Part shown: positions 17,828-23,157 of the stretch, piece after piece
How positions within the stretch are numbered: the stretch's first letter is position 1
Layout of the letters: each line of letters opens with the position of its first letter
IMG/VR virus record: IMGVR_UViG_3300043673_000021
Coordinates: 1-64,000 of that record
Source: a virus
Strand: one strand, 5' to 3'
DNA length: 64,000 nt
Notes under the pieces: model-generated
Database searches by the model: none
What the model was told of the DNA's origin: nothing
The model's input: the letters and a program-made list of their open reading frames with translations, nothing else
Program-made: the position numbers and the translations under genes

Positions 17828-18463
17828 CTATTGTGCGGCTCTCGCCTTGTACAGACCAGCGAATAGCATCTCCTCTGGCACACCAACCTGAAGTCGGGTA
17901 AATACCGTCCTTGACTTAAGCCCGTGCTCTTCGCAAAGTTCGCGCAATAGACGCCTCTCGCCGTGATAGTTAATCCACGTGCAGGTTCGCATATTTCTGT
18001 TCTGTTGTTTTCTTTCGGCCCAACGAACGTTACCGGGTTCGTAGTTGCCGTCGTTGTTCGGATAACGGTCGAGTGAGTGGCTGGGCGATGGTCGCCTTCC
18101 GACATACGACAGAAATTCCGAGAAGTCAGATCGCCACGCCGGGAAGACTTCAATACCTCTACCGCCGTAATTTTTCCATTCCTTGCGACTGGGCTTGGAA
18201 CATCGATCGAGCATATTTCGCCATGCTTGGTATTCTGCGGTGCGCCGTGATTCACCATGGGACGTCATTCTCTTTCTGACGTTTTCCAGAGATAGACAAC
18301 CGCAAGATTTTGTTTTCCCTTTTCGCAGTGAGTTAAGGTTTACGTCGGTTATCTTCCCGCAATCACACTTGCAATTAAATCTTCGATGTGTCCCGGAAGT
18401 TGGGGGAACCTCACGTATAATCGATAGTCTTCCGTATCGATCGTCGGGTTGTATAATTAGCAT
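17828..18463 (-). CDS. Free-standing HNH/AP2-type homing endonuclease
   Basis: 211 aa. It matches a mobile phage endonuclease family: an N-terminal Cys cluster (CKCDCG at 31-36, SCGCL at 53-57), then HGESRRTAEYQAWRNML, RKEWKNYGGRGIEV, HSLDRYPNNDGNYEPGNVRW and a C-terminal HTH-like segment (LLRELCEEHGLKSRTVFTRL). Such genes spread by cutting cognate DNA that lacks them. It interrupts an otherwise tight block of tail genes (tape measure, then DUF2460), fits exactly between them, and looks more A+T rich than its neighbours by eye, all of which fits recent insertion. Activity is not shown. Confidence 0.8.
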   Translation of the reverse strand: MLIIQPDDRYGRLSIIREVPPTSGTHRRFNCKCDCGKITDVNLNSLRKGKTKSCGCLSLENVRKRMTSHGESRRTAEYQAWRNMLDRCSKPSRKEWKNYGGRGIEVFPAWRSDFSEFLSYVGRRPSPSHSLDRYPNNDGNYEPGNVRWAERKQQNRNMRTCTWINYHGERRLLRELCEEHGLKSRTVFTRLQVGVPEEMLFAGLYKARAAQ

Positions 18464-21400: not shown

Positions 21401-21609
21401 AGGTTCGACTGCGCCGCTGCCCGTGTGTCGTCGCCGGCCTTGTCCAAATCCTTATGGGCTTGCTTCAGGCGAGCGAGCGAGGCCGCCGACTCCACGGAGG
21501 TCGAGTTGTAGTTGGAACGCGCCTCCGCGAGTGCGGAAATGAGCGCATCGAGCCCCCCGGGAATCTGGGAGGCATCGATTATCGCGCCGATTCTTATTTC
21601 GTTGGCCAT
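18469..21609 (-). CDS. Tail tape measure protein
   Basis: 1046 aa. Long helical regions rich in Ala, Gln, Lys and Glu flank a hydrophobic stretch (residues about 110-210, Ala/Gly/Met rich). Later parts include repeated coiled-coil segments (ALDRQEYSLREKEARDGAKRI). Near the C-terminus are LQQAFSTISQGFEKSFGDML-like and MYQNLAQQAINYVIG elements common in lambda-type tape measures. Tape measure length sets tail length, so a tail well over 100 nm is inferred. The ATG overlaps the stop of the frameshift extension of the chaperone gene (TAATG), the classic arrangement. Confidence 0.9.
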   Translation of the reverse strand: MANEIRIGAIIDASQIPGGLDALISALAEARSNYNSTSVESAASLARLKQAHKDLDKAGDDTRAAAQSNLGQISSVYAATDGQAQSLRATIEALEIQLAAYGISVKQAAAATGQLGQAQAIGASYASNMAASTAQAAMSATQMGAAMAAAAATVPTAMGGIMAGAAAAGAAANAAVPPIQQLGAASASASIPIFRIYALLALVRRGLDELDKFRQAEVDLGAFADASGIAAEKIAQLEDAMNLLGGNGDQVPQILLRLGRAMEQAQRGSKVAADEIRRFGIGGMTDPIEALLRISDVIHNTSDKFEALETASRLVGMGIKNIEGPLSEGSDALRKAMVDSTDLAAAQAAGIDPARELTRVEHELGAAFTTVGVDVLPYVTGAFKVAASVMSGFALDIKVVTDSMIAGWLAAGDVVESLGNAMQDAANNKWGKAAADIKAGMAFAKIEWAEYKKTVASDVADNQKFLDALWKPKPQAKPEGGDKPFPKVGDPNANKKAEDVLRKADQEAFADLQANHQLTIQEEISFWEGRLKVEADYADRVREIKRTLGHEYQALDRQEYSLREKEARDGAKRIMEAINAGSEDAQTSGGKRGELSFLTGQADKLANDVVGGSLAAGIAYEEVMKKIPAVTREAWAEAEEATKTALQRQFEAINDNGKISLAEQKEFWAQAALSADSGSKAEAYAFKEWEKAGKDLADQLRKVNVELANLKSAADAAASIHAINLQELGAKGQQETRLFPTTPQERVGDARQQIGFDQQKGKVQQQEQTEKFNTAADKASLTGDAQDYEKAMAESNKLTAVIQANDLKLKTDQNALSKAIVQPWQQAFSTISQGFEKSFGDMLLHGKSFGAGMVQMYQNLAQQAINYVIGMGEKWVEEHILMGLVSKIFHTQQVTDTTAATTAATAVHTAANVVMATSDAGLAAAGAFAFYSAIDPPVAPAMAAVYYAEGMGFAALSAERGAILPNANSLVLAHPEEMILPRPISLGIQQMIASGGANPGQHRPSNVTHNYGGVTNNVKSGASASDIGRESYASLRRFARDQHTRF

Positions 21610-22030
21610 TAGTTCGCTTTACCGTTGGCGATCTGGGATTCTGCGCGGAGTTTTTCCGCCTTTAGGAACATCACGTAGGCGGGCGGTAGTCTGGAGGGGT
21701 CCATCATCGGGATGGGAATCCCGGACTTCATGGATTCATTGGCGATTTGGTTGTCGATCGACTCGCGATTACGACTCCGACGGCGAGGTCTTGGGGTGTC
21801 GTCATATTCGTAGTCGCTATCTTCTCGGGCCTTGAGTATCCCGAGCCCGCATGCAATCGCCCATGCGCCTTCGGCTGCGCTCGTAGATTCAGTGGACCAA
21901 TAAGCGAGAAGCCTCTGGGAGGTTCCAAAGGCGAGGAGATCGACCGAGTGAAGATCGGACGCCCCGCCGCTGACTAAGCGGAAGCGGAGTTGGTTCCAAT
22001 TGATGGGCTCTCCGGTTCCGCTTTCGCTTC
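21609..22030 (-). CDS. GT-type tail chaperone extension, reached by -1 frameshift
   Basis: This frame has no usable early start codon. It opens after a TGA at about 22066 and stays open for about 140 codons to a TAA that overlaps the tape measure start. It overlaps the end of the preceding chaperone gene in the -1 frame. The encoded chain contains SVDLLAFGTSQRLLAYW, WAIACGLGILKARED, an Arg-rich stretch and LPPAYVMFLKAEKLRAESQ. In lambda-like phages the chaperone G is extended to GT by -1 slippage at this exact place. A run of five G (minus strand 22034-22030, codons CCG GGG GAA) is the best slip candidate, though not a perfect X XXY YYZ heptamer. The start given is approximate. Confidence 0.75.
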
Positions 22031-22387
22031 CCCCGGCGGAGCCTGGAACAAATCATTCAACTTGAGAACGGCGGTGTGTATCTCGGAAAATCGCTGAGCA
22101 CCGTTTTTGAACGTGAATGAGGCGTCAAGATCCGCCTCATTGTAGGGCTCCGTATCGCTGCCGAGTTGGTTTTCCTTAGTGGGCCAATTGACCGCGTTGT
22201 TAATGCTCCACAGGATGGTCTTCAGCGCAACCTTGCCCAGCTTCTCTTTCAGTTCGATACTGGGAGGTTTCTCGGGGTGTGCTTGGACGGCACCTACCGT
22301 ATCCTCGATGATCTGCCGGGCCTGGACGCGGTTCAATTCGCCAAGGGTCCACTCCTTAGCGCCCGCGTTGAATTTTACGGTATCCAT
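21974..22387 (-). CDS. Tail assembly chaperone (G-like)
   Basis: 137 aa. It begins MDTVKFNAGAKEWTLGELN, followed by helical segments (RQIIEDTVGAVQAH, LKTILWSINNAVNW) and a C-terminal Pro/Glu/Ser tail, a layout typical of tail chaperones placed between the tail tube and tape measure. These proteins coat the tape measure while the tail is built. Its reading frame ends in TAG, but the -1 frame continues to the tape measure gene (see the extension entry). The family identity is inferred from gene order and the frameshift arrangement. Confidence 0.75.
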   Translation of the reverse strand: MDTVKFNAGAKEWTLGELNRVQARQIIEDTVGAVQAHPEKPPSIELKEKLGKVALKTILWSINNAVNWPTKENQLGSDTEPYNEADLDASFTFKNGAQRFSEIHTAVLKLNDLFQAPPGEAKAEPESPSIGTNSASA

Positions 22388-22392
22388 GCTGG

Positions 22393-23157
22393 TTAGTTCG
22401 TGAGAACGGCCTGGAATTTCTGGGCGACGATACCAGTGGTCGGATCGGCATAGAAGGCGAAATCGAGTTCCGGCTTCAAGTAGTCATCGCGCTTCATCGC
22501 GTTCTTGATACCAGTGAATCGGCAGGCTGGCAGATAAATTCCGCTGGCAACACCACTAGCCACCTGATAGGACTCGGAGATGTACAGCGATACGACAGGG
22601 CCGTATCCCATGATCTGGTTATGAATGGTAAGCGTCTGGCCAATCACAGTGCCGGGGGTGTACTGGTAATACAGGTTGACGTTGCCAGCCAGCGTGACGT
22701 CTGCCGCATTAAAGGTGTAGACTCCAGTCGATGCTACTACGCTATATTGACCCTGCGCCGGGCTGGCAGAAACTCTCGTAAGGTTGATGCCGCCGAATAC
22801 AACGCCAAGATCAACAAAACCCGTCGTGTGCGCTGCGGTTACCGTCGCCGAGATAGCCTGCGTGTCGCCTCCCGCGAGATTCGGAACGGCCTGAATTCCC
22901 GCGATGAGAGAATCAGCCCAAATCATGTTGTTTTCGGAAAGCAGCTTGGTTGAACCGATCGTGAACTTTCCGGAGCACTTGAGGTTTCCCGGTGCGGTGT
23001 CGACCGGTGCCCGATACTGCCCGTAAAGTTCTTTGACTTCACCGGACATGTCAACGCTGGCATCCTGGATGATCGGAATGATGGTCGGCGTTGGGTTGGT
23101 CGGAAGATTTCCACCAACGGGAACGACAAAACAGTTGCCTATGGCAAATTGTATCAC
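22393..23157 (-). CDS. Major tail tube protein
   Basis: 254 aa. Beta-rich with few charges: VDMSGEVKELYGQYRAPV, GKFTIGSTKLLSENN, and a C-terminal CRFTGIKNAMKRDDYLKPELDFAFYADPT. Residues about 95-175 look like an inserted Ig-like domain (TAAHTTGFVDLG, STGVYTFNAADVTLAG). Position between head-tail joining proteins and the tail chaperones supports the call. The start is a GTG with GGAG 9 bases upstream. There is a 129-base untranslated stretch before it, unusual in this operon. Confidence 0.8.
   Translation of the reverse strand: MIQFAIGNCFVVPVGGNLPTNPTPTIIPIIQDASVDMSGEVKELYGQYRAPVDTAPGNLKCSGKFTIGSTKLLSENNMIWADSLIAGIQAVPNLAGGDTQAISATVTAAHTTGFVDLGVVFGGINLTRVSASPAQGQYSVVASTGVYTFNAADVTLAGNVNLYYQYTPGTVIGQTLTIHNQIMGYGPVVSLYISESYQVASGVASGIYLPACRFTGIKNAMKRDDYLKPELDFAFYADPTTGIVAQKFQAVLTN

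Follow-up and report, generated by a model that had tools for sequence, protein, structure and literature searches.

On the minus strand of the window (the whole 64,000-nucleotide stretch of viral DNA analyzed here), a 137-codon gene lies between a putative tail tube gene and a tape measure gene, and a long −1 reading frame overlaps its end. The locus thus raises the question of whether the two frames are joined in translation, giving a short tail assembly chaperone (G) and a frameshift-lengthened form (GT), or whether the −1 frame (T) is expressed, or has arisen, in some other way. The features concerned are as follows.

22393..23157, minus strand: putative tail tube gene of 254 aa, immediately preceding G
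22387..21974, minus strand: G, putative tail assembly chaperone ORF, 137 aa, stop codon TAG at 21976–21974
21977..22052, minus strand: stretch that can be read in both frames, from the stop map of the three frames
22034 down to 22028, minus strand: candidate slip site G_GGG_GAA, within the G/T overlap and in phase
21612..22031, minus strand: predicted T extension after the slip, −1 frame, 140 aa
18469..21609, minus strand: tape measure gene, 1046 aa, named from position and size and from phmmer matches

The −1 frame of G is closed by a TGA at 22055–22053 and then stays open from 22052 to 21612, a run of 147 codons. Its earliest ATG, GTG or TTG is the ATG at 21731, only 40 codons before the stop codon, TAA at 21611–21609, which overlaps the tape measure ATG (21609–21607) as TAATG. 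The initial annotation had described a 137-aa chaperone gene overlapped by a long open −1 frame that lacks a start codon until late and meets the tape measure gene at TAATG, and we found each of these features in the sequence. The gene order is tube (23157–22393), G (22387–21974), T (to 21609) and tape measure (21609–18469), so that an overlapping frame without its own start sits between the tail tube and tape measure genes and ends at the latter, an order that was matched in relatives. Because the −1-frame TGA lies on one side and the G stop on the other, any slip between the frames would be confined to 21977..22052. Just downstream of the tape measure gene, a minus-strand ORF at 17828–18463 (211 aa) resembles, by eye, an HNH-type endonuclease, and its product has a cysteine-containing N-terminal part (also by eye).

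We consider it highly probable that this locus encodes a G/GT pair of tail assembly chaperones, a short G and a predicted frameshift-lengthened GT. Observed directly are the gene layout, the −1 frame, homologs of G and T in relatives, a conserved slip site and a fold match of the G model; from them we infer a slip by some fraction of ribosomes, with tRNA re-pairing, and a role of the products in tail assembly. Most ribosomes would translate G (137 aa) and end at the TAG at 21976–21974. A minority would pause with tRNA-Gly on GGG (22033–22031) and tRNA-Glu on GAA (22030–22028), slip one base backward at G_GGG_GAA and continue to the TAA at 21611–21609, yielding a GT fusion of 119 + 140 = 259 aa that shares the start of G. 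In such a slip the P-site tRNA-Gly would re-pair perfectly on GGG and the A-site tRNA-Glu could shift to GGA by way of a G-U pair at the middle position, a re-pairing that has been offered as the explanation for GGGGGAA (PMC10885494). In lambda, the tape measure protein is bound by the G part and the tail tube subunit by the T part (reviewed in PMC5009743). By analogy, G would here form a coat on the tape measure protein, and tail tube subunits would be recruited through the T part present in a few GT copies.

Within the stretch open in both frames, no in-phase candidate other than G_GGG_GAA (22034–22028) has a perfect P-site repeat; the G-frame codons GGG and GAA would become GGG and GGA after a −1 slip. 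The 64-kb window holds eight copies of GGGGGAA or GGGGGAG on its two strands; one copy lies within the overlap and is in slip phase, against a chance expectation of about 0.0015. The site departs from the classical X_XXY_YYZ form, in that the P-site repeat is perfect and the A-site change from GAA to GGA depends on a G-U pair in the middle position, and it corresponds to the “fivetwo” motif of PRFect, being a GGGGGAA in slip phase within the overlap. The GGGGG run at 22034–22030 had been proposed at the outset as the best slip candidate, a choice borne out by its conservation in relatives (85/98 loci). It had also been called non-classical, which is correct as to form, yet the site is well defined, GGGGGAA having already been described as a slip sequence (PMC10885494, PMC5506516).

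The open −1 frame is weak evidence by itself, because a given frame would stay open by chance with a probability of about 0.01–0.02 (0.024 for the same length and dinucleotide content, 0.014 with late-gene composition). Codon usage favors the T frame: scored against the phage's own other late genes, the extension reached +9.3 nats in the T frame vs. −17.6 in the G frame and −27.9 in the +1 frame. When profiles built from relatives with the window left out were used to rank the 1365 stop-to-stop ORFs of the window, G was recovered at an E-value of 2.3e-6 (next ORF, 0.57) and the −1 frame, by the T profile, at 1.8e-5 with a score of 21 bits (next ORF, 1.7). T is thus homologous to the T of other phages, a homology seen within this tube family. 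Direct searches of PHROGs, Pfam, NCBIfam, phage records and viral contigs with the window's G and T gave no match, and since the collections searched contain nothing close to either protein, the window's link to the family is a remote one.

The T core as aligned to relatives is SAGGSESGTGEPINWNQLRFRLVSGGASDLHSVDLLAFGTSQRLLAYW, and conservation is concentrated in the first half of the extension (EPINWNQLRFRLVSGGASDLHSVDLLAFGTSQRLLAYW). The initial annotation had pointed instead to LPPAYVMFLKAEKLRAES near the end of the extension as a sign that it is protein-like; this sequence is present in the translation but lies outside the conserved core. A structure model of T (pTM 0.38) was confident in the first helices only. 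Among 46 close pairs of relatives, differences in the T frame numbered 839 at third positions vs. 242 at first and 196 at second positions, and because the differences fall mostly at third positions of this frame we conclude that T is under selection at the protein level.

The −1 frameshift reading was settled by relatives found through the tail tube, in which both the frame and the slip site proved to be fixed or conserved. Used as a single-protein query against viral and genome contigs, the tail tube found no match. A five-member tube alignment matched 351 viral contig stretches, from which we retained 80 loci, and a T alignment added 45 further loci. Relatives of the window's tube include Brevundimonas phages Strzyga and Polewnik, Pseudomonas phage KT1 and Acinetobacter phages, and the six named-phage relatives examined carry an in-phase CGGGGGAA or CGGGGGAG where the next gene overlaps the −1 frame. 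A first pass yielded 61 distinct loci with the layout, the window among them. In a profile-based second pass over 132 sequences, both G and T were recognized in 126, and T lay in the −1 frame of G in all 126, in the order tube, G, T, tape measure, a count that is fully independent only for the later-added loci, because −1 extensions from the first set had served to train the profiles. The proposal that the window has the conserved G/GT layout of long-tailed phages is supported by this recurrence. Two tube relatives differ in content, carrying directly after the tube an ORF that looks lysozyme-like by eye (MPGNRQAFLDMLAWSEGTST; L042:5042-5506 and L044:2523-2987), and no T was recognized in the stretch examined in either.

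The recurrence of the −1 arrangement bears on the idea that G and T form a pseudogene, or are one ordinary gene that an indel from sequencing or assembly has split. A single base would indeed join the two frames, but several cultured phages share the same −1 layout, and across many assemblies it is present in 98 distinct loci. Its recurrence in so many genomes rules out an indel error for the family, and we assign this explanation a negligible probability for the window.

T might also be a separate small gene, unfused to G and started either by re-initiation or from a rare start codon, such as the ATC at 22004, which has a GGAG upstream. Records of Brevundimonas and Acinetobacter phages do annotate T as a separate hypothetical protein from a downstream ATG. 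However, no ATG, GTG or TTG occurs between the slip site and the conserved T core in 58 of the 61 first-set loci, the annotated starts remove conserved T sequence, and a separate gene would need neither the fixed −1 frame (126/126) nor a conserved in-phase slip site. We regard a separate T gene as very unlikely. The GenBank entries concerned start at an internal ATG (L002:5776-5970, L003:7286-7480, L005:7011-7244 and L007:7026-7253) and lose the conserved start of T (e.g., IDWEELYTHLVLT in the Acinetobacter phages), and none of these four records has a joined GT feature annotated. Published records of this kind, including those of the Brevundimonas and Acinetobacter phages, thus shorten the T part.

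Counting distinct T sequences with an overlap (kinship uncorrected), GGGGGAA or GGGGGAG was found in slip phase in 85 of 98 loci. Each of the remaining 13 carries, close to the T core within the overlap, a classical-form heptamer (AAAAAAA, GGGAAAG, GGGAAAA, CCCAAAC, GGGGGGA, GGGCCCT or CCCTTTG), although it is doubtful that two of these, GGGCCCT (L122) and CCCTTTG (L131), truly act as slip sites despite their form. The alignment of relatives for a conserved slip site, suggested at the outset as a check, thus came out in favor of a site near the 3′ end of G. In the first set, GGGGGAA/G was in phase in 54 of 61 loci, where the background rate of those loci would predict 0.31. The overlaps of this set contain 58 copies, every one of them in slip phase.

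Phase also weighs on transcriptional slippage, in which the polymerase would slip on the G run and produce a mixed mRNA population with no slip by the ribosome. A homopolymer run is present in the window, and some relatives have AAAAAAA in its place. Five Gs are, however, a short run for polymerase slippage, and some relatives have GGGAAAG or CCCAAAC, without any long run. Transcriptional slippage, moreover, needs no codon phase, yet GGGGGAA/G was counted 92 times in slip phase and twice in another phase. It appears extremely unlikely as an explanation, and a ribosomal −1 slip at G_GGG_GAA remains our preferred reading.

The last position of in-phase GGGGGAN is restricted to purines. In-phase GGGGGA was followed by A or G in 92 of 92 cases, against a background in which GGGGGA was followed by C or T in 40 of 76 (kinship uncorrected), and neither GGGGGAC nor GGGGGAT was seen in slip phase among the relatives' loci. 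In an alignment of 41 G proteins with a mean column identity of 19%, only four columns are nearly invariant and two of them are the slip residues Gly119-Glu120, and the classical-form replacement sites mostly do not keep Gly-Glu in G. A two-tRNA slip fits these data because the last position is always a purine and the replacements mostly do not preserve Gly-Glu. We put at slightly below even the chance that G_GGG_GAR acts in this way, with tRNA-Glu re-pairing to GGA so that the junction would read Glu (PPG-E-SES) rather than Gly (PPG-G-SES). The junction residue would distinguish the two modes, Glu indicating two-tRNA slippage and Gly slippage in the P site only.

Signals around the slip site were less uniform. 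Downstream RNA structure as a common stimulator gave a weak signal in relatives (mean z −0.5 to −0.9 vs. −0.4 for a control stretch) and is not claimed here, and none was singled out at the window's slip site. Upstream pairing of Shine-Dalgarno type was −5.0 kcal/mol in relatives vs. −3.8 kcal/mol in synonymous-codon controls, being stronger in 62 of 83 loci (kinship uncorrected). Several relatives have an AGGAGG-like sequence that precedes the slip site by about 8–14 bases (e.g., L002:5640-5660) and is possibly a Shine-Dalgarno stimulator. No such stretch is evident upstream of the window's slip site, and with the statistic for relatives uncorrected for kinship we do not claim a stimulator of this kind for the window.

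The structure model of G (pLDDT 86, pTM 0.73) had as its top structural matches 5ir0 (Z 7.0), a Vibrio PICI protein whose function is not known, YqbN (3klu, Z 6.6) and the HK97 chaperone (2ob9, Z 5.7). The last two ranked second and third among 448 chains, and the next unrelated chain had a Z of 3.9. The likeness to YqbN and HK97 covers residues 1–114 of the predicted fold, with 2–8% sequence identity and modest Z-scores. Foldseek with the same model returned no E-value below 0.5, and because its E-values were not significant the fold match is counted as supporting evidence only. A tail assembly chaperone fold for G, at a modest Z of 5.7–7.0, is therefore a prediction that is supportive rather than proof. 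Searches of the G and tube sequences against solved structures gave no match.

For the flanking genes, the tube gene product matched phrog_8234 (E 1e-35), and its naming as a putative tail tube follows from gene position. The tape measure product showed a phmmer relation to the long ORFs downstream of T at 15 loci (best E 3.5e-18) and a weak match to phrog_13338. Among relatives, 13 G proteins fall in PHROG 7947 and 13 T proteins in PHROG 8018; the window's own G and T did not match these two families, being too remote. PHROGs 8234, 7947 and 8018 are all listed with unknown function, and they likely represent the tail tube, G and T, respectively, so that three unnamed phage protein families gain a likely function.

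The G/GT tail chaperone pair is textbook knowledge, and GGGGGAA as a phage slip motif is also already known. Xu, Hendrix and Duda are said to have described in 2004 a conserved tail-chaperone frameshift, and the slip sequence of phage lambda gpG/gpGT is GGGAAAG. As in the window, the lambda gene lies between the major tail protein and tape measure genes, its product is a short chaperone plus a −1-extended form, and the extension ends at the tape measure gene. The window differs from lambda in having no detectable direct sequence match to it and in its non-classical G_GGG_GAA, and its GT form is a predicted one. As the “fivetwo” motif, GGGGGAA has been described in joined genes of SEA-PHAGES genomes (PRFect, PMC10885494), and it has been proposed as the slip site for the tail genes of corynephage phi16, for which an internal Shine-Dalgarno sequence and a pseudoknot were also predicted (PMC5506516). 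The heptamer proposed for the −1 slip is thus the same in these phages and in the window, and in phi16 it also concerns tail genes. The hosts of the SEA-PHAGES and phi16 are Actinobacteria, whereas the window's relatives include phages of Brevundimonas, Acinetobacter and Pseudomonas, and neither the internal Shine-Dalgarno sequence nor the pseudoknot predicted for phi16 is evident in the window. Beyond the family assignments, what is likely added here is the purine rule of the slip site. The natural series of GGGGGAA, GGGGGAG and classical heptamers at one place offers a set for testing non-classical slippage and which tRNA decides the junction.

The region between T and the tape measure gene varies among relatives. 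Two Acinetobacter phages have an extra GDSL-type esterase gene there (L005:7309-8019 and L006:7348-8019), and in L007 another, different ORF occupies this position; because the extra genes differ between these phages, the T/tape measure junction appears to accept insertions.
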